47,181 nucleotides of DNA from Pirellulaceae bacterium (lineage in GTDB: Bacteria > Planctomycetota > Planctomycetia > Pirellulales > Pirellulaceae), in assembly GCA_028289675.1 (NCBI GenBank), contig JANQOL010000353.1, forward strand, positions 1-47,181, written 5' to 3'. Positions 24,875 to 34,721 of this stretch are shown here, piece after piece. The translations under genes were made by a program, and so were the position numbers. Within the stretch, counting starts at the first letter, position 1. Every line of letters begins with the position of its first letter. A model generated the notes under the pieces. That model saw only the letters and a list, made by a program, of their open reading frames with translations, did not search any database and was not told the DNA's origin.

Positions 24875-27800
24875 TTAGTTTGTTGTAGCCGCGGACCGCG
24901 CGTGTCTCAGGCTGATGATCTTGGAGCTGGGCAATGACAAAGGTGCCACCGACTCCGGCTGCCGAACTCCTAGATCCTCGGGAGAAAGAAACCAGAAGAG
25001 TCCTGGGCGAATGAAGAACTCAGCCAGAGTCGCGGTTACCAGCCCGCCTAGAATCACGGTTGCAACTGGAAACAGAATCTCTTTGCCCGGTTGCTCTCCG
25101 CCGTAGACGAGTGGGATGAGGCCCAGTCCCGTCGTGAGCGCGGTCATCAGTACGGGGGCCAGGCGATCGAGGCTACCTTGCACGATGTCATCTTCAGTGA
25201 TCTGTCCGTCTCTAGCCCGCTTCAGATACGTTGATGTCAGAAGCAGGCCGTTGCGGGTCGCGATGCCGCCAAGGGAGACGAAACCGACCGTTGCCGCGAC
25301 GGAAAACGTCTGGTTGGTCAGGTACAGGCCGGCGATTCCACCAACGAAGGCGGCCGGCAAAGCTACCAAGAGCTGAAAGGCGATGCTGATTGAGTTGTAG
25401 GTTGAATAGAGCACTAAGAAGACGGCCAGCAAAGCGACACAACTGAGCCAGAAGATTCTCGAGTTGGCTTGTTGCTGTGCTTCAAACTGTCCTTCAAACG
25501 TAACGAAGTAGCCTTCGGGTAACTCGACAGACGCGGCAATGCGACGTTTGATTTCATCGACGACGCTACCCACGTCGCGACCAAGGGTATTCACGCGGAC
25601 CACGATGCGTCGTCGCCCATCTTCGCGGTGAATGGTATTCGGCCCCGCGGCTTTGTAGACATCGGCGACAGCCGCCAGCGGGACCCGCTTTCCGTTGGGC
25701 AATTCGAGAGGCATTCGGTGCAGGTTGTCTAGATCACGACGCTGTGATTCATCGAGTCTAAGCAGTATATCGAACGAGCGTTGACCATCGATCATCCGAG
25801 AAACTTCTTGCCCATGAAGAGCCGTCTCAACGAAGTGATTGACGAAACTGCCGGACACACCGTAGTAGGCCAACATATCGTGCTTCAGTTCGACACGGAA
25901 TTGCGGTGTCGGTTGCTGTTGCTCGACCAACGGCGGAGCGATGCCGGGAATATCCTCGATCGCATGTTCAATCCGTTCAGCTTCCTGGCGAAGTGTTTGA
26001 AGATCGTCTCCGTACAGCTTGATCGCGATTTGTGCGGTGACACCAGAAAGCATGTGACTGATGAGGTGAGCGATTGGCTGTTCGACTTCCGTCTCCACAC
26101 CCGGCACGTGCTCGACGGCCTCGTGCAGGGCTTCGATCACTTGGCCGCGGGTCATCCCACAGTCCGGATTCAGCGTGACTACGTATTCGCTGATGTTGAC
26201 TCCCATGACATGCTCGTCCTGTTCGGCTCGGCCGGTGCGGCAAGTAAACCACAGCAATGGAGCTTGCGGGTTGTCCGCGGACTTGACCAACTGGCTCAAG
26301 TTTCGGTCGGCCATGCGGCTTATCTCGCGGCTGACCTCGAGGGATGTTCCTGGCGGGGCAAACAGGTTGACTTGGGCGGCGCCTTCGTCGAACGGAGGCA
26401 AGAAATCTCGACCGATGTTCCAAGCAATCACACCACCAGCTACGCAGGCCATGCCCAGTACCGACAGCGAGCTGGTGAGTCCGACCGGAGTCATGCTGGC
26501 ACGAATAACCGGCCGAGAGATCGCCTTCAGGCCTCGCAGCATGATTCCATCGGACTGACTGGACGAAGCTCTTTCATTGGGTAGCAAGTAATACGCGAGC
26601 ACGGGCGTTAAGGTCAGTGATACCAGTGTCGAAGCGACAATGGACACGATGTACGCGATACCGAGTGGCGTAAACAGACGGCCTTCCATGCCCGAAAGAG
26701 CGAACAACGGCGCGAAGACGATGACCACCAACATCGTACTGATGATAATCGCATTGCGGACCTCGACACTCGCTTCGAAAATCACTTGCAAGACGGGACG
26801 CGGTACAGCTAGGCAAGCGTTCTGCTTGAGTCGTCGGTAGATATTCTCGACATCGACAATTGCATCGTCGACTAGCTCACCCAACGCGACTGCCAAGCCA
26901 CCCAGGGTCATGACGTTGATCGACAATCCCCACCAACGAAACAGCAACGCGGTTACCAGCACGGAAATCGGAATCGCCGTTAGAGTGATGAACGTCGTGC
27001 GAAAGTTAAAAAGGAAGAGAAACAAAATGATGACGACCAAAATAGCGCCGTCACGCAAAGCTTCGATGACATTGGCCACGCTGTGGTCGATGAACTCCCG
27101 CTGTTCATAAGTCGTTCGCAATCGCACTCCGTCAGGCAACGATGGTTTGAGTTCGTTCAGAGCCGCGTGTATTGCGTCAGTGACTTCGCGTGTGTCGGCC
27201 TTGGGTTGCTTTTGGATCGTTAGCACCACAGCTGGCAGACCGTTGACCGACGAATCGCCGCGCTTGGTTTGGGCAACTTCTTTCACAGAGGCAACATGTT
27301 CCAGCAGCAGTGGTCGGTCAGCTCCAGTCCGCAGGACTGTGTTTCGAATTTCTTCGGCGCTGCTAAAGCGCCCCAGGCCTCGAATCAAGAATTCTTGGCC
27401 ATCCCGGCCCATGAAGCCGCCGGTTACGTTCTCATTGCTCGCCCGTAGGGCGGACTCGATTTCTGCGAGGCTCGTTTCATAGCGGTGCATCTCATGAAAG
27501 TCGACGAGCACGTGATATTGCTTGCGGTCACCGCCCATGGTGATCACCTGCGAAACGCCAGGGATCTTGCGTAGTCGCTGACGTACGACCCAGTCCGCCA
27601 TCGTCCGCAGTTCCATAGGTGACGTCGTACCGTCTTCGCTCCACAAGCCGACGAGCGCGATCTGGCCTAGCAGGGATGACCTAGGTCCCATTTGTGGTCG
27701 GACGTCCGGAGGCAGCTGGTCCGTAGTGATGGTCAACCGCTCTTGAACGGTTTGGCGAGCACTTTGTACGTCGGTACCCCAATCAAATTCGACGTTGATC

Positions 27801-28084
27801 ACCGACAAGCCGATGTCAGAGGAACTACGCACGGCGATAACGCCCGCAGCGCCATTCATGGCGGATTCAAGGGGTAGCGTGACGCGCTGTTCGACTTCCT
27901 CGGGAGCGAGCCCTTCGCACTCGGTAACAATGACGACGCGTGGACGAGTCAAACTCGGGAGCACATCGATGGGTAACGAGCGAACCGCCAAACTGCCTAC
28001 GACCAGCACTGCGATGGCAGTACACACAACCACAAGACGGTTGGCCAGGGCAAGTCGGATGACGGCGTTCAGCATGGAAGGCAA
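24875..28084 (-). CDS. CusA/CzcA family heavy-metal efflux RND permease
   Basis: 1069 aa; PIDVLPSLTRPRVVIVTECEGLAPEEVEQRVTLPLE, GGLAVALGELVDDAIVDVENIYRRLKQN, GRDFLPPFDEGAAQVNL, LGGIATRNGLLL. Confidence 0.95.
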   Translation of the reverse strand: MPSMLNAVIRLALANRLVVVCTAIAVLVVGSLAVRSLPIDVLPSLTRPRVVIVTECEGLAPEEVEQRVTLPLESAMNGAAGVIAVRSSSDIGLSVINVEFDWGTDVQSARQTVQERLTITTDQLPPDVRPQMGPRSSLLGQIALVGLWSEDGTTSPMELRTMADWVVRQRLRKIPGVSQVITMGGDRKQYHVLVDFHEMHRYETSLAEIESALRASNENVTGGFMGRDGQEFLIRGLGRFSSAEEIRNTVLRTGADRPLLLEHVASVKEVAQTKRGDSSVNGLPAVVLTIQKQPKADTREVTDAIHAALNELKPSLPDGVRLRTTYEQREFIDHSVANVIEALRDGAILVVIILFLFLFNFRTTFITLTAIPISVLVTALLFRWWGLSINVMTLGGLAVALGELVDDAIVDVENIYRRLKQNACLAVPRPVLQVIFEASVEVRNAIIISTMLVVIVFAPLFALSGMEGRLFTPLGIAYIVSIVASTLVSLTLTPVLAYYLLPNERASSSQSDGIMLRGLKAISRPVIRASMTPVGLTSSLSVLGMACVAGGVIAWNIGRDFLPPFDEGAAQVNLFAPPGTSLEVSREISRMADRNLSQLVKSADNPQAPLLWFTCRTGRAEQDEHVMGVNISEYVVTLNPDCGMTRGQVIEALHEAVEHVPGVETEVEQPIAHLISHMLSGVTAQIAIKLYGDDLQTLRQEAERIEHAIEDIPGIAPPLVEQQQPTPQFRVELKHDMLAYYGVSGSFVNHFVETALHGQEVSRMIDGQRSFDILLRLDESQRRDLDNLHRMPLELPNGKRVPLAAVADVYKAAGPNTIHREDGRRRIVVRVNTLGRDVGSVVDEIKRRIAASVELPEGYFVTFEGQFEAQQQANSRIFWLSCVALLAVFLVLYSTYNSISIAFQLLVALPAAFVGGIAGLYLTNQTFSVAATVGFVSLGGIATRNGLLLTSTYLKRARDGQITEDDIVQGSLDRLAPVLMTALTTGLGLIPLVYGGEQPGKEILFPVATVILGGLVTATLAEFFIRPGLFWFLSPEDLGVRQPESVAPLSLPSSKIISLRHARSAATTN

Positions 28085-28099
28085 CTCGGCGATCTCGAA

Positions 28100-29656
28100 T
28101 CAATGGTCGTGGTGATGGTGGCCGCCGCCCGCGCCAGCCTGCATCTTCATGGCCAGATACAGTTGGTAAGCATTGTTCAGGGCGATGTTGTCGTCCGAAT
28201 GCAGTTGGCCATCGTCAGCAATTACGACTGTCTTGTCGTCGCGATACAACAAACGTACGGGCACGGGTTCGAGTTCGATGAACGCGTGATGTTCGTCATC
28301 ATGGAGAGGTTCGTCAGCCGATGCGGCCTGCGGTTGTTCAGAAGCCAACTGGGTGGTCACAAGACTGAGCGAAGGACTCCCCCCTGAAGATTCTTCTGGT
28401 GCAAGATTGTGTGCGTCGTGATGCTGGGCGAACACGAAGACGTTTGGTCCGTCGACGACCACCGCGTCTGCCGGCAACGTCAATTGATCGCGCCACCGTT
28501 CCACAGGCAGTCTCAAGTGGAGTCGTTGGCCGGGGCGGAAACGCCATTGTTCAAATTTGCGCCCTTCGCGCTCGCGCGCGAATGTCACTTGATTGGGGAG
28601 CTCGAGGAAGAATTGGACCGTTTGGGTTTGTTCGTCCACATGGTTTTCGATTCTCAGTAGTTCCAGCTGAAGGTCCGAGCCATGCTGATGGCCTGGTTCA
28701 TGAGTTTCTACGGTGATCTTCCATCGTTGATCGATGATTCGCTCCAGAACATGCAGGTCATCCTGGAAGGCCGTGCCTTTCAGGTAGAGTGTTGGATGAT
28801 ACGCGACGGTACAAAGTGCATCGCCACGCTGGACGGCGCTGCCGGGCTGAACTGCTAACGATTCGACGGAGTAGCCAAAGCTATCTTGGCCGTCTGCGGC
28901 CGCCAGTGGATCCCGGTTACGTCGTGGCAGGTCGGACGCGAACACGGTGGTTAACTTCATAAGTTGCCGATCATCGATCAGTTGTTCGATGGCGGTTTCC
29001 GACATCCCGCGCGTCGCCAACTCTTGCCGCAAAGCCGCTTCCCGCGCCTGCAATTGCCTGACTTCATACCGCAGACCTCGCGCCTTCGACCCTGACACCG
29101 CACCAGAGGAAACCAACGGTTGTAGACGATCGATCTCCTGTTGAGCGACTTCCTGACGGGACAACAGTTCCAAGAGTTGGGATTGCGCGTTGATCAGCGC
29201 CTCGTCCGTAATTCGAATAGTGAACAGCGGCAATTCGGCTTCGATCGTTTGTCCCGCCAGCAGATCAACCCGATCAACGATGCCCGTAACCGGCGCGGGA
29301 ATCGACAAGCTGCTGTGCCCAGGAATCTCCACCACGCGTCCGGGCACGAGGATGGACTTCCAGTACTCGCCTCGGGACACATGTCCCATGCGAAGCTCCA
29401 AGTTTTCGAAAGCCTGCCGCGTCAGCGCCAGATGATCTTCTTCGTCTTCATGGTCGCTTTCGTGATCGTTTATCGCGTCGTGATCTGCTATTGCCGCCGA
29501 GTTTGCCGAGTGCGAATGATCGGTGTCGCTCGCTTTACTGAAAGTCGGCGGAGCGAGGAACGACTCAACGGCGGATCCGAGGCCGAAGACAGCTGTCAAC
29601 ACCATGGCGGCAAACAGCGCGCGCAGGCCAATACGCTGACGTTGATGGTTGGGCAT
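28100..29656 (-). CDS. Efflux RND periplasmic adaptor (CusB/CzcB-like), His-rich at both ends
   Basis: SIPAPVTGIVDRVDLLAGQTIEAELPLFTI, hairpin domain, ESLAVQPGSAVQRGDALCTVAYHPTLYLKGTAFQDD; N-terminal DHSHSANSAAIADHDAINDHESDHEDEEDH and C-terminal GGGHHHHDH. Confidence 0.92.
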   Translation of the reverse strand: MPNHQRQRIGLRALFAAMVLTAVFGLGSAVESFLAPPTFSKASDTDHSHSANSAAIADHDAINDHESDHEDEEDHLALTRQAFENLELRMGHVSRGEYWKSILVPGRVVEIPGHSSLSIPAPVTGIVDRVDLLAGQTIEAELPLFTIRITDEALINAQSQLLELLSRQEVAQQEIDRLQPLVSSGAVSGSKARGLRYEVRQLQAREAALRQELATRGMSETAIEQLIDDRQLMKLTTVFASDLPRRNRDPLAAADGQDSFGYSVESLAVQPGSAVQRGDALCTVAYHPTLYLKGTAFQDDLHVLERIIDQRWKITVETHEPGHQHGSDLQLELLRIENHVDEQTQTVQFFLELPNQVTFAREREGRKFEQWRFRPGQRLHLRLPVERWRDQLTLPADAVVVDGPNVFVFAQHHDAHNLAPEESSGGSPSLSLVTTQLASEQPQAASADEPLHDDEHHAFIELEPVPVRLLYRDDKTVVIADDGQLHSDDNIALNNAYQLYLAMKMQAGAGGGHHHHDH

Positions 29657-29662
29657 AACTGA

Positions 29663-29714
29663 TTCTCAGAAGACGACTGGCTATCAGAAGACACTGGTTC
29701 CCAGAAGACACTGG
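29663..29714. repeat. Three tandem approximately 17-nt repeats just upstream of the adaptor start codon
   Basis: TTCTCAGAAGACGACTGG / CTATCAGAAGACACTGG / TTCCCAGAAGACACTGG, ending 7 nt from the CDS start at 29656. Confidence 0.8.
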
Positions 29715-29777
29715 CGTTTGAAACACCAACGACTAGCCGCAGGGACTAAACGCTGTGATTCGAGACTGAGAACCAGT

Positions 29778-30194
29778 TCAGAGTCGATAGACCTGGAGCG
29801 CAGAGAGCGCAGGCGCATGCATGATCGCCAAATCATCGCGATTTGGTTGCAAGGCACGTAGATCGGGCGTCGTGGTGTCGCCCAGTTGATTGTCCGGTGC
29901 GCTAGTTTCGAACGCGGAGCGCGACGCGGGATCCCGGTTCAGCAGTCGAGAGTTGTCGACATAAGCGGCCGCAAGTTCACCTGTGCAGTCATCATGGCCT
30001 GCGTCTTGAACGGACGTCACGCCATCAGTGGACGCCAGTCCATGATCGTGGTCGCCGAAACCGAGCATCTGAAACCAGGCGTTGTGTTCCAAACAGCCGC
30101 ATGGACAGGCTCCCAGCTGAAACACGATCATTGCTAGCAGCACGCTGCAAGCGAGCTTCCGCAACTGGATCGTTTTCAATGACACTGGATACAT
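29778..30194 (-). CDS. Small secreted Cys/His-containing protein (possible metal-binding), efflux-operon associated
   Basis: MYPVSLKTIQLRKLACSVLLAMIVFQLGACPCGCLEHNAWFQMLGFGDHDHGLASTDGVTSVQDAGHDDCTG...; lies between the adaptor and the outer-membrane-factor gene. Confidence 0.6.
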   Translation of the reverse strand: MYPVSLKTIQLRKLACSVLLAMIVFQLGACPCGCLEHNAWFQMLGFGDHDHGLASTDGVTSVQDAGHDDCTGELAAAYVDNSRLLNRDPASRSAFETSAPDNQLGDTTTPDLRALQPNRDDLAIMHAPALSALQVYRL

Positions 30195-30291
30195 GGGTAG
30201 GTTCTCCGCAATGCACCCTAGTCTAACTATTTAGCAGGCGCAGAGCAATTTTGCAGCTGAGCGAGACAGCCATCGCCCCGGTGGTGATACT

Positions 30292-31899
30292 CTACAGGCC
30301 GCTGAGAGCTTGGCCGCGAAGCCCGTCGCTACCTTGGTAGTCGATGCTCTGTCCCAAGCCATCTTCCAGGAGATTTCCACGAATGCGAGCTTGGACTTGG
30401 GCCAGTTTGACAAGGGCGGCGACAAACTGAAGGTTGGAGTCAAAGTAGGCCCGGCGGGCGGTCAGGACACGCAGAAAGTCGAACTCGCCGGCCTCTTTGC
30501 CCTGCCCAATCAACTCCAACGCAGCCTCAGCGTTTGGCAGGATCCGGGATTGAAAATTCTGAACAACAGCCGCGGCCGCGAGGTACTCACCTCGGGCCCG
30601 TGCAAGATCCCTACGAATCCGCGCCCGAATTCGCTCGACATTTCGCTGCGCCGCTGTGTTCTCGGCCATCGCAGCTCGTATGTTGCCTTGATTACTGTTG
30701 TGAACTGGAACGGGCAGGCTGACCTGGACATTTGAAAACGCAGTGCCGGTGGCATCGTCGGCCCCAACGCCTAATTGCGTCGTAACATTGGGAATGGCTT
30801 GCAGTTGTTGGCGGTGCAAGTTCGCACAAGCACGGTCGACGCGTGCTTGGGCTACGGCGAGTTCTGGGCTGCTGGCGATGATTTCCATGAACATCGACTC
30901 TTGGTCGAACAGCGGCTGGCTGGCGATGTTTGCCAAGTCATCCCGGTTGCCAGCGACAGTTGTGTCTCCGAAGTCCACCACTCCGCAAACCGCGGCCAGT
31001 TGTTGCAGTGCGGCGGAACGATCTATGTCCGCCTGCTGAATCAACAGATCGACCTCGCTGAGTTGGATCTCCGACTGCAGCAGATCAGGTCGTGTGCCAA
31101 CGTCGGCTTCGAGTTTTTCGCCTGCCAGTTTGACGGCCTGCTCGGCGACGCTGCGAAACTCTTCAGCGAGTTGCCGCCGTACTTGCGCTGACACGGCGTC
31201 GTAGTAAGCGATGCGCAAGTCGGTCCAGATGCGTTGCTGCTGAACGTGAACTTGCCAGTTCAAGGCAGCAATATCTTGGGCGGTCACGCGTCGATTCCAT
31301 CCGAGCTTTTCTCCGCGAACCCAAGTCTGAGAAACGTAACCGCCATGTTGGCCACCGGTACCATCGTTGCCAATCTCTTGGCCAAAGTAGCCAACGGTCG
31401 GGTTCGGTTTTAGGCCAACTTGTTGATGAATGCCTCGCGCCTGGCCGGCACTGGCCGCCGCCTGTTGAATTGCCGGGTTTTGAGCCATCGCCATTTGCTC
31501 GAGCAGTTCGAGCGTCAGCACGGTGTCACCCTCTTTGCTGGACCACAACTCCCCGCCAAGATCGACTTGAGCAGCGACTTCGACGTCGACAGCCGCGGTC
31601 GACGGGTGGGGAGCTTCGTTTGACTGGTCGCGCTCCGACCGATCCGGTGCAGCTTCACCTTCTTGAAGAAGAACTCCGTTGTCATTGCCGCCAGGAGATT
31701 GAAAGCCGGCCTCGACCACCATGTTGGGCTGCGGTGCTGGCAATTCTGCTGGTCCGGCGGCTGCAACTGTAGTACTGGACGAATGATTAGCCAGTGACGT
31801 TTTCGTCTTCCTGACGCGCGCAATCGAACAGCCAGACACACTCGATCCCGCTAATGCTAGCGTAAGAGACAGCTTGAAAAGCAATGAGCGGCGGAGCAT
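30292..31899 (-). CDS. TolC/CusC family outer membrane efflux protein
   Basis: Lipoprotein-like leader MLRRSLLFKLSLTLALAGSSVSGCS; LTLELLEQMAMAQNPAIQQAAASAGQARG, SLPVPVHNSNQGNIRAAMAE, LTARRAYFDSNLQFVAALVKLAQ. ATG at 31899; the listed ORF (32004) is over-extended. Confidence 0.92.
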   Translation of the reverse strand: MLRRSLLFKLSLTLALAGSSVSGCSIARVRKTKTSLANHSSSTTVAAAGPAELPAPQPNMVVEAGFQSPGGNDNGVLLQEGEAAPDRSERDQSNEAPHPSTAAVDVEVAAQVDLGGELWSSKEGDTVLTLELLEQMAMAQNPAIQQAAASAGQARGIHQQVGLKPNPTVGYFGQEIGNDGTGGQHGGYVSQTWVRGEKLGWNRRVTAQDIAALNWQVHVQQQRIWTDLRIAYYDAVSAQVRRQLAEEFRSVAEQAVKLAGEKLEADVGTRPDLLQSEIQLSEVDLLIQQADIDRSAALQQLAAVCGVVDFGDTTVAGNRDDLANIASQPLFDQESMFMEIIASSPELAVAQARVDRACANLHRQQLQAIPNVTTQLGVGADDATGTAFSNVQVSLPVPVHNSNQGNIRAAMAENTAAQRNVERIRARIRRDLARARGEYLAAAAVVQNFQSRILPNAEAALELIGQGKEAGEFDFLRVLTARRAYFDSNLQFVAALVKLAQVQARIRGNLLEDGLGQSIDYQGSDGLRGQALSGL

Positions 31900-32222
31900 T
31901 GCTTGTCCGGTCGAAGCGAGGAAATCACTTGGTGTGGGCGTCAAAACCGACCCAACGAATACATTGCTTATCGGTTGATTGGGGCATCTCAACCCCTTTT
32001 GCACCTATGCTCGTTGAAACCGGAACAAGCCGTACAGTGTACAAGGAAGCGTGGCGTCGCTTCCCAGCACACCCGTTGAAGATCTGCGCGAACCGCACAG
32101 GCTGTAGCGCGAACCCTCTGCCATCTCAAGTCTCGGCTTGGCGAAATACCCTCCCACGTCTCCCATGGGCGCTCCAAGCTGCGGCGAAGTGGAAGCTGTG
32201 GTTAACTGATCGCGGAGCTGCC

Positions 32223-32330
32223 TTAGCTGTTGTGTACGGGATGGGACGCTCGCTCATCGTCTTCGATGACGACGCTCGCTAAGGACTGGAATCCGACGCA
32301 GCTTGAGCGAGATTGCGAGTCTCGAAATCA
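32223..32330 (-). pseudogene. Frameshifted remnant of a BY-kinase C-terminal tail (paralogue of 38538..40961)
   Basis: Reverse strand reads ...LASVVIEDDERASHPVHNS* versus ...STVVIEDERPVSHPVHTS* at the end of the BY-kinase gene. Upstream, in another frame, is NLAQAASDSSP. DNA similarity is also obvious (TGT(G)TACGGGATGGGAC...CTCATCGTCTTCGATGAC). Confidence 0.6.
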
Positions 32331-32370
32331 GCATCGATGTTAAGCCTGAACTTGGCTAATACCAACCCGA

Positions 32371-32413
32371 CTCCCCTCGCCCCGCTTCGGGGAGAGGGGT
32401 TGGGGGTGAGGGG
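32371..32413 (+). repeat. Left arm of a perfect 43-bp inverted repeat flanking the DUF559 gene; itself a hairpin
   Basis: CTCCCCTCGCCCCGCTTCGGGGAGAGGGGTTGGGGGTGAGGGG; exact reverse complement of 32811-32853. Internal hairpin CCCCTCGCCCCG-CTT-CGGGGAGAGGGG (11/12). Confidence 0.97.
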
Positions 32414-32436
32414 TAACGCTGTCTTTGGGTGAGGGG

Positions 32437-32808
32437 CTAAAGCACTTCTTCAGCGCGAAGCGCAACGATCGATTCGATTTGTGTTCGGACTGCTTGGTCA
32501 TCGCGGGCGACGTCGTAGCCGTTGATGCGCATGACGTCGAAACCTTGTCGATGCAAGAGTTGATCTCGTCGTTGGTCACGCTGTTTTCCCGCTTCGGTCA
32601 TATGGTCTTTTCCGTCAACTTCAATAACCAGCTTGAGTTCAAGACAAACAAAATCAACGGTATACGGTCCAATTGGATGTTCGCGACGAAATTTGTATCC
32701 AAGAATTTTTCTAGCGCGGAGCATCTGCCAAACGCCCTGTGCAAACTCGTTTGCTTGCTTGCGTTGTTCTCTGGCGAACGCAACTCTTTCTGGATCTCGC
32801 CTTGCCAT
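32437..32808 (-). CDS. DUF559 domain protein (Vsr-like PD-(D/E)XK endonuclease fold)
   Basis: 123 aa: FAQGVWQMLRARKILGYKFRREHPIGPYTVDFVCLELKLVIEVDGKDHMTEAGKQRDQRRDQLLHRQGFDVMRINGYDV; typical DUF559 (R...GpY.vDF.c...kLviEvDG..H). Confidence 0.93.
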   Translation of the reverse strand: MARRDPERVAFAREQRKQANEFAQGVWQMLRARKILGYKFRREHPIGPYTVDFVCLELKLVIEVDGKDHMTEAGKQRDQRRDQLLHRQGFDVMRINGYDVARDDQAVRTQIESIVALRAEEVL

Positions 32809-32810
32809 TG

Positions 32811-32853
32811 CCCCTCACCCCCAACCCCTCTCCCCGAAGCGGGGCGAGGGGAG
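32811..32853 (-). repeat. Right arm of the 43-bp inverted repeat flanking the DUF559 gene
   Basis: CCCCTCACCCCCAACCCCTCTCCCCGAAGCGGGGCGAGGGGAG; perfect reverse complement of 32371-32413; starts 2 nt upstream of the DUF559 ATG. Confidence 0.97.
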
Positions 32854-33225
32854 AAGAGAATTAGATTGCCAGTCTATCTGCCGAACTCCAGTTAGAAAGA
32901 CGTTCGAAGGGACGGTTCCCTTACAGGTGTCTTCGCTGAAAGAGCCCCAAATACTGGTGCGACTCGGCGGCCGGCCAATCTGCGTCGGCTGGACAACCCA
33001 ACATTACTTTATGTGAGTGGCGGGTCCGCTGAGGTGGCGAGTAACGGCGTAATTCGATGGTTCAACTAAGAAATGCATGTCAATGCAACTTCGGCTTGGA
33101 AGCAAGCCGTGCAACTAGCAGCGGTCTTGCGCAAGCAAACGCCAAATCGCTTCGTTGGGTAGGCTCGTGATTCACTAAGGATACGCACTTCAAGCGGCGC
33201 GCCGAGCGCCCAGTCGGAATCGCTG

Positions 33226-34659
33226 TCAAGGCAGCCTGGTCAGGTACATCAACTTCACGGCTTGATCATCATAGGCGTCCAGCGAAATGCAGTATCCCTG
33301 GGAGCTGTACGACTGAGGAGCTCCTGTTGGTTTCTCAAGCGTATAGTGATGTGCTTGCTGGTAGTGATGAGGCGATTGTTCGTCGGCTACAAAATGCGTG
33401 AATCCCTGGTCGTGATAGACGAATGCCGAACCCGGTGAATCGCACAGGACCGGGAGATAGTCGCCGTTGTAACCAGACTCCGTCAGTTTCACAGGAGCTT
33501 CCAGCTTTTGCACGACCTTACCTTCGCGGACGATATTGAAGATATTGTCTGGTCCCCCTCGAATTCCTCCCAGCCATGTATTGCCGATAGAGTCATTGAG
33601 GAGCGGATAACCTGACATCCGCAGCGTGTTTGAAACCTGCCCGTCTTTATCGATGCGGACGGCCAACTGGCCCGTAAAGATGTCGCACACACCACCGGAC
33701 TTGCCTTCCGGGCTGGCGATCCAGATCGCATCGTTCTGCTCCAGAAGCGCGGGGAATTTTCCCATGCCATCGATTGCATGATGAGTAGGTTCGAACACGA
33801 CATCGCCGTTCTTGATCATAGCGAGGAAGGATACGCCTCCGTCGTGTCTGAGTTGATTGTCGCCGATGTACAGGTAACGGTGATCCGGCCCAGGCACGAT
33901 AAACGCGATCGTGCCATGCCGAGAACCGGCTTGGACGAGGGACTCCCTGCATTCCAGCCAGGAATCGTCCACCAGGACGTGCAGGTGGTTATCGTGCAGA
34001 CACCAAATACGCCCCAGCTTATCAGCAACGATCATCGTGTGACGAAGCCACCGGTCCCGACGAATGGGATAGGGAACGCCGAGACCGAAGGATGTTCGGA
34101 TCACGTCTCGATGCTTCTTGAGAAGTTCCAGCACACTGCCGCTATCGACAATCTTCGTTCCCTGAATGAGCAACGCCCGGTCGTCTCCGACCACCAGCAC
34201 CGTATTGTCAATTCCCGCGACAATCCTCCCGTAAGGGCCGTTGCGATCGTGCCGGGTCAGTCGTTCTGCCCACGGCAGGACATGCCATTTGCCTTGGTCA
34301 AAAAACGCGATGCGATTCTGCGCAGCCGGCTTTATGATTGCCTCCAGGTCGTCGTCATAGCCGAGCACCAGCGGTTTTGTTGCCGGTACGCGCTGGCCTT
34401 TGTGAAAACGTGGTGGCCCGTTTGGAATGAAGGTCCAGACGGCTCCAGTACCCGTCACGGCGAAGGCTCTGCCGCAAACTTCCTGCTCCATGCTTTTTAG
34501 AATGGGACCCTCTGCACTCGTCCTGCCGGCAACGGCGCCTTGCTGATGGCCATCTCCGCTGTCCTGAGAGCTGGTAGTGACGTCATCGTCGCCGACCATG
34601 GTGCAAAACGTACTGATCACAAGCAACGAAACGACTCTTGAGATTTCTGTTCGAAGCAT
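33226..34659 (-). CDS. Hypothetical secreted protein, possibly beta-propeller-like
   Basis: Long ORF with hydrophobic leader (VVSLLVISTFCTMVG) and repeated strand-like units (GRIVAGIDNTVLVVGDDRALLIQG; GRIWCLHDNHLHVLVDDSWLE; NDAIWIASPEGKSG; GNTWLGGIRGGPDN). Confidence 0.6.
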   Translation of the reverse strand: MLRTEISRVVSLLVISTFCTMVGDDDVTTSSQDSGDGHQQGAVAGRTSAEGPILKSMEQEVCGRAFAVTGTGAVWTFIPNGPPRFHKGQRVPATKPLVLGYDDDLEAIIKPAAQNRIAFFDQGKWHVLPWAERLTRHDRNGPYGRIVAGIDNTVLVVGDDRALLIQGTKIVDSGSVLELLKKHRDVIRTSFGLGVPYPIRRDRWLRHTMIVADKLGRIWCLHDNHLHVLVDDSWLECRESLVQAGSRHGTIAFIVPGPDHRYLYIGDNQLRHDGGVSFLAMIKNGDVVFEPTHHAIDGMGKFPALLEQNDAIWIASPEGKSGGVCDIFTGQLAVRIDKDGQVSNTLRMSGYPLLNDSIGNTWLGGIRGGPDNIFNIVREGKVVQKLEAPVKLTESGYNGDYLPVLCDSPGSAFVYHDQGFTHFVADEQSPHHYQQAHHYTLEKPTGAPQSYSSQGYCISLDAYDDQAVKLMYLTRLP

Positions 34660-34721
34660 GTCTGAACTCGAGTTCCTGAACAAAGGTGACCTCCTCCTTC
34701 AATTGTCTCTGATTCAGCCTA

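Follow-up and report, generated by a model that had tools for sequence, protein, structure and literature searches.

The stretch of DNA analysed here (the window, 47,181 nucleotides of a contig from a Pirellulaceae bacterium) contains a compact unit at positions 32371–32853, in which a single gene for a small DUF559-family protein is bracketed by two inverted, hairpin-forming arms. At the level of genome comparison, the gene and its arms were shown to recur and diversify together in many phyla, either between genes or in frame inside them. Their distribution lends good support to a pattern of mobility, in which the block of gene and arms is gained or lost as a whole, has spread among phyla and decays to single hairpins and scars. 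Because the package recurs across phyla and sits even inside working genes, it looks like a selfish DNA unit, and on balance we think it probable that DUF559 units are minimal selfish elements that spread by nuclease-provoked copying. The preliminary description of this DNA had proposed a minimal mobile unit with a layout like that of REP/RAYT systems and a different enzyme, a proposal that is now well supported by the enrichment of the repeat beside DUF559 genes and by the occupied, solo-arm, scar and empty states of orthologous sites.

The two 43-bp arms are exact reverse complements of each other (43/43 bases between 32371–32413 and 32811–32853), as was first described, and the pairing can be extended to 46 nt at 98% identity. 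When the complete window was searched for exact inverted 20-mers no more than 3 kb apart, 24 overlapping 20-mers were found, all belonging to this pair, and no second close exact inverted repeat appeared in that search. In both arms a 27-nt hairpin is followed by a G-rich tail of ∼14 nt that is directed at the gene, in agreement with the folding and the tail originally attributed to them; the G-rich tail pattern has two matches in the window, compared with 0.07 expected from shuffles. Among ORFs of ≥80 aa, the one at 32437–32808 (minus strand, 123 aa) is the only one contained entirely in the space between the arms. The statement that this is the sole ORF there holds in that sense, but it is overlapped by two antisense ORFs (156 and 127 aa). 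No Rfam family matched in the window or in the four loci tested. The genes beside the unit, at 24875–32004 of the window, resemble a CusA/CusB/TolC-type metal efflux set.

The genome to which the window belongs (G000, window contig C655) has just one other DUF559 locus, on contig C645, which is 5′-truncated and has a stop codon. When up to two mismatches were allowed, the arm motif was found in three places in this genome, namely the two window arms and one place beside the C645 locus. All three arms adjoin a DUF559 gene, and no gene-less arm copies were found in the host genome. The expectation that the hairpin exists elsewhere as non-autonomous copies was thus borne out in other DUF559 genomes, where many such copies are present, but not in the host genome. 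The features of the window unit and its surroundings are listed in Table 1.

Table 1. Positions of the DUF559 unit, its arms and adjacent features in the window
Feature	Position	Strand	Details
Candidate outer terminal repeat CCGACGCAGCTTG	32293..32305	+	At the endpoint of C645 homology
Stretch outside the 3′-side arm	32293..32370	.	83% shared with the C645 locus; homology ends at 32293
3′-side arm	32371..32413	+	Hairpin 32373–32399 and G-rich tail 32400–32413; TM/PIT-type repeat, form as in published TM repeats
Second tail copy GGGTGAGGGG adjoining the stop codon	32427..32436	+	Local duplication; absent from the genome's second DUF559 locus
DUF559 gene, 123 aa, Vsr/EDxHD-type nuclease fold (predicted)	32437..32808	-	Pfam, AlphaFold2, Foldseek
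5′-side arm	32811..32853	-	Exact inverted copy of the 3′-side arm, tail inward
Candidate inverted partner CAATCTGCGTCGG	32976..32988	-	12/13 match to 32293..32305

The assignment of the encoded protein to DUF559 was confirmed by a match to the Pfam family (E 1.3e-28). Its AlphaFold2 model has a mean pLDDT of 93 and a pTM of 0.84, and Foldseek matches of the predicted fold include 3hrl, an uncharacterised DUF559 protein, 3r3p (E 5.6e-5), the catalytic domain of the homing endonuclease I-Bth0305I, and 1vsr (Vsr). I-Bth0305I is reported to form a dimer on a target of nearly 60 bp (PMC3943268). Six residues (R15, W26, D51, E62, H68, D77) are the same in all of 51 sequences, and E22 and D64 in nearly all; E22, D51, H68 and D77 would supply the E, D, H and D of an EDxHD-type active site.

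The linkage of DUF559 genes with inverted arms was measured by a motif-free flank test, in which the 200 bp upstream of the gene were compared, by best local alignment, with the reverse-complemented 200 bp downstream of it (cut-off score ≥14). This score was reached at 43/79 DUF559 loci from many phyla vs 4/1508 control windows taken from those loci; the score of L049 came from a stretch of N, and without this locus the proportion is 42/78. In a second set, selected with the Pfam model alone, the corresponding figures were 36/54 DUF559 loci vs 10/508 control windows (2%). A repeat without enrichment near DUF559 genes, as would be expected of a common intergenic element, is therefore not what we found; it is strongly enriched beside them. 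Arm sequences vary by clade, and most retain the hairpin and the G-rich inward part. Between phyla, the similarity of arms follows that of the nucleases (Spearman rho 0.47; 0/1000 permutations were as high, with a maximum of 0.28), some of the phylum labels in this correlation being record titles and not ranks. Close DUF559 relatives occur in different phyla, with at least 41 group-label changes among the loci of the correlation analysis, and this mixing is consistent with horizontal transfer.

In the window's genus, near-identical arms are found on units of several species (L304/L309, L307, L310), a second DUF559 clade (L301, L302) has different arms, and 4/15 genomes have no DUF559 match. 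One single-contig genome of the genus carries two near-identical complete DUF559 units in tandem (G459:C1:798920-799876, L304/L309). Some DUF559 genes are flanked by inverted arms of another kind, which are very long (43–88 bp; L157, L163, L024); the arms of L157 comprise CTTCTCCCGTTACGGGAGAAGGTGG and then a second hairpin.

DUF559 genes with arm-type flanks were found in frame in bioF (L196), priA (L098), hsdR (L205), hsdM (L201, L204), hsdS (L194, L199) and a DUF1156 gene (L202). No intein domain was found in the eight interrupted host ORFs, and little sequence is present beyond the arms in the bioF, hsdM, hsdS and priA units. The match of BioF to solved structures is unbroken across the insert (residues 178 to 182 of 5jay). 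One bioF site could be compared in five genomes of one family (L290–L294; G334 and its relatives), in which it is empty (G450), carries a scar of ∼14 codons (G411), carries a single hairpin (G232) or carries a DUF559 unit (G449, G334). Presence/absence variation at orthologous loci, the lack of which had been named as an argument against mobility, is therefore evident at this site in occupied, solo-arm, scar and empty states. Arm-only insertions were also found at the same HsdM site as gene-bearing ones. Type I restriction genes (HsdR, HsdM, HsdS) are the hosts of most in-frame units, and the insertion sites often recur, for example in HsdM before RKGE.LFIDAR.

The arms match a known repeat, the intrastrand triplex motif (TM, earlier PIT), which has the form CCCTCNCCC-loop-GGGNGAGGG-loop-GGGNGAGGG, i.e. 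a pyrimidine-purine hairpin and then a matching purine tail. Relative to the E. coli TM consensus, the window arms have one stem mismatch and slightly longer loops. TM/PIT repeats were reported in >260 bacterial genomes, with 23 copies in E. coli K-12, and the intrastrand triplex was shown in vitro for the E. coli motif (Holder et al. 2015, PMC4666352). According to the same study, two loop types are always combined in the inverted TM pairs of K-12, variability at TM loci is unusually high, with a link to genome instability, and mobility functions adjoining TMs were never found (PMC4666352). A fixed arm rule for DUF559 units (upstream = type B, downstream = type A) was considered and rejected, as the side varies.

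TMs and DUF559 also occur together at the level of whole genomes. Among Planctomycetota, a TM was present in 20/26 genomes with a strong DUF559 match vs 12/124 without one (Fisher p 8e-12), and among Gammaproteobacteria at least two TMs were present in 35/62 genomes with DUF559 vs 23/219 without (p 3e-13), both values being uncorrected for phylogeny and genome size. Counts for a reversed-pattern control were near zero throughout. No DUF559 match was found in several genomes rich in TMs (G301 with 66 copies, G206, G386, G205, G428 and G004), which indicates that TMs can persist or spread without DUF559; gene loss or another driver could account for these genomes.

In two genomes (G258 and G353), TM doublets have spread as part of an unrelated MITE and not on their own; this MITE has terminal repeats AACYCAAGTTGCTACC and 4–5 bp target duplications (L213–L235, L260–L289), with ∼240 matches to the terminal repeat per strand in G353. 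The DUF559 unit of G258 lacks the terminal ends of this MITE, and the short stretch between its tail and gene is unlike the spacer of gene-less doublets. The 91-bp MITEs of the two genomes were considered as empty sites and rejected, since they carry one hairpin and correspond to internal deletions (between hairpins) of the 168-bp form.

We infer that the DUF559 nuclease may act on the arms. It would recognise the arms or DNA resembling them, perhaps as folded single strands, and would cut at such DNA or at an empty target. Double-strand-break repair, or replication copying, would then install the unit in the manner of homing, and the arms would serve either as ends or as regions of homology. 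TM doublets, the gene-less arm pairs, would be by-products, and deletion between arms would yield single hairpins. We counted against this selfish-unit reading the TM-rich genomes without DUF559, the MITE-borne TM doublets of G258 and G353, the E. coli TM alleles without a clean target duplication and the host genome without gene-less copies. A wider proposal, which we put forward tentatively and rate somewhat below an even chance, is that DUF559 units form an autonomous class of single-gene mobile elements, with the Vsr-fold nuclease as the sole mobility enzyme and the hairpin/triplex arms as ends, and that the TM/PIT repeats in E. coli, cyanobacteria, Neisseria and hundreds of further genomes derive from them.

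The main rival explanation, which we regard as rather unlikely, is that TM/PIT doublets owe their spread to other processes (MITEs, recombination) and that DUF559 is a free-standing homing endonuclease gene which invades doublets, cutting the gene-less ones and using the arms as repair homology, so that the repeats would not be mobilised by DUF559. It agrees with the fold match to I-Bth0305I and with the tail-inward layout that gene-less doublets and gene-bearing units have in common, but the tail-to-gene stretch in G258 differs from the spacer of the gene-less doublets that would have been invaded. Although TM doublets exist inside the MITE of G258/G353 and also without DUF559, and one HsdM site is common to arm-only and gene-bearing insertions, the host genome has DUF559 units and no gene-less doublets, and each DUF559 clade with other arms would need its own pre-existing repeat.

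The extent of the window unit is relevant to another alternative. Homology to C645 runs ∼80 bp past the 3′-side arm, to position 32293, so the unit may exceed the 483 bases of the preliminary description. With the candidate outer inverted pair (12/13; as good in 7/20000 shuffles), the window element may be ∼696 bp long, and a target-duplication check returned a possible TCCAG repeat. The 485-aa neighbour gene (33226–34683) was matched in 0/39 relatives, and no empty window site was found. The arms could be the ends of a conventional MITE or IS of larger size (with outer terminal repeats 32293–32305/32976–32988 here), moved by an unrelated transposase with DUF559 as cargo. We consider this improbable: the C645 homology does stop exactly at the 12/13 inverted pair, and the TM doublets of G258/G353 do have outer terminal repeats and 4–5 bp target duplications, but outer ends vary by genome while arms and gene stay together across phyla, the in-frame units (bioF, hsdM, hsdS, priA) have little sequence beyond the arms, and there is no second gene wholly between the arms.

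Hairpins close to gene ends can act as terminators and DUF559 is related to the repair nuclease Vsr, so the arms might be a regulatory or terminator feature, or DUF559 a repair enzyme that resolves such structures, with the linkage reflecting function and not mobility. This is very improbable in view of the in-frame insertions through the arms in coding genes, the presence/absence at one bioF site, the mixed phyla among close relatives and earlier work in which PIT motifs had no promoter or terminator activity (reported in PMC4666352).

When DUF559 units are compared with known systems, the closest parallel in layout is with REP/RAYT (REPtrons, REPINs; IS200/IS605-derived Y1 transposase), in which a small single enzyme gene also lies between inverted hairpin repeats, with gene-less doublets elsewhere, co-occurrence of enzyme and repeat, and repeats also inside genes (PMC3733652). 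However, the DUF559 unit has a nuclease with a predicted Vsr/EDxHD-type fold instead of a HUH/Y1 tyrosine transposase, the window arms have a G-rich tail and no GTAG or CGTC tag, and DUF559 units are often in frame in type I restriction genes. Because the defining enzyme and tag features fail, the unit was not filed under REP/RAYT. TM/PIT repeats share the arm sequence and architecture, the inverted doublets and a K-12 example near ycjD, but they were described as gene-less intergenic repeats without a mobility gene (PMC4666352), whereas a nuclease gene lies between them in the units studied here. The DUF559 protein resembles EDxHD homing endonucleases (I-Bth0305I) and the products of free-standing homing genes in predicted fold and, judged by conservation, in catalytic residues and probable chemistry, and selfish insertion at conserved sites is a further common feature; in contrast to them, the DUF559 unit has no self-splicing intron or intein, its gene is bracketed by inverted hairpins, it is found in multiple unrelated host genes, and its cleavage is putative. 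Rickettsia palindromic elements (RPEs) are likewise palindromic repeats in frame in protein-coding genes (PMC3733652), but they lack a nuclease gene and fall among the CGTC-tagged repeats. MITEs and insertion sequences share terminal inverted repeats and dispersal, whereas the DUF559 unit has no DDE transposase and the in-frame units have no long outer terminal repeats. In open-access text, we found no paper that joined DUF559 to inverted repeats, and there is a real chance that the DUF559 unit is a class of its own.

For the TM/PIT repeats, the selfish-unit reading supplies a candidate enzyme, whose gene is found in physical linkage with arms of this type in many phyla. The reading would place a further mobile unit beside REP/RAYT, similar in its working but with an unrelated enzyme. 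It would also account for the insertion of repeats together with a nuclease, in frame, in restriction-modification and housekeeping genes, and would give a biological role to DUF559, a common family without a known function. It could also explain the puzzling repeats of E. coli and many other bacteria, and ycjD provides a K-12 gene for a direct test of the idea.

In E. coli K-12, ycjD is the DUF559 gene, and a TM lies 165 bp past its 3′ end (L118, 1351205–1351760). The chance that any of the 23 TMs falls within 200 bp of one given gene of this size is ∼0.4%, as estimated from counts. Most of the ycjD region was matched in 3338/5426 E. coli genomes; in sampled genomes without ycjD, fabI alone was matched there, and one of them has an efflux operon beside fabI. 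The ycjD locus was considered as an insertion/empty-site case and rejected, because the neighbourhood also differs in strains without ycjD (another operon beside fabI). Clean target duplications were not seen at E. coli TM alleles. The TM pairs in the hrpB/mrcB and fepB/entC intergenic regions are present or absent by strain, and internal deletions leave one hairpin. A small number of E. coli plasmids also carry short TM matches (10 places in all), though TMs are said to be absent from mobile replicons.
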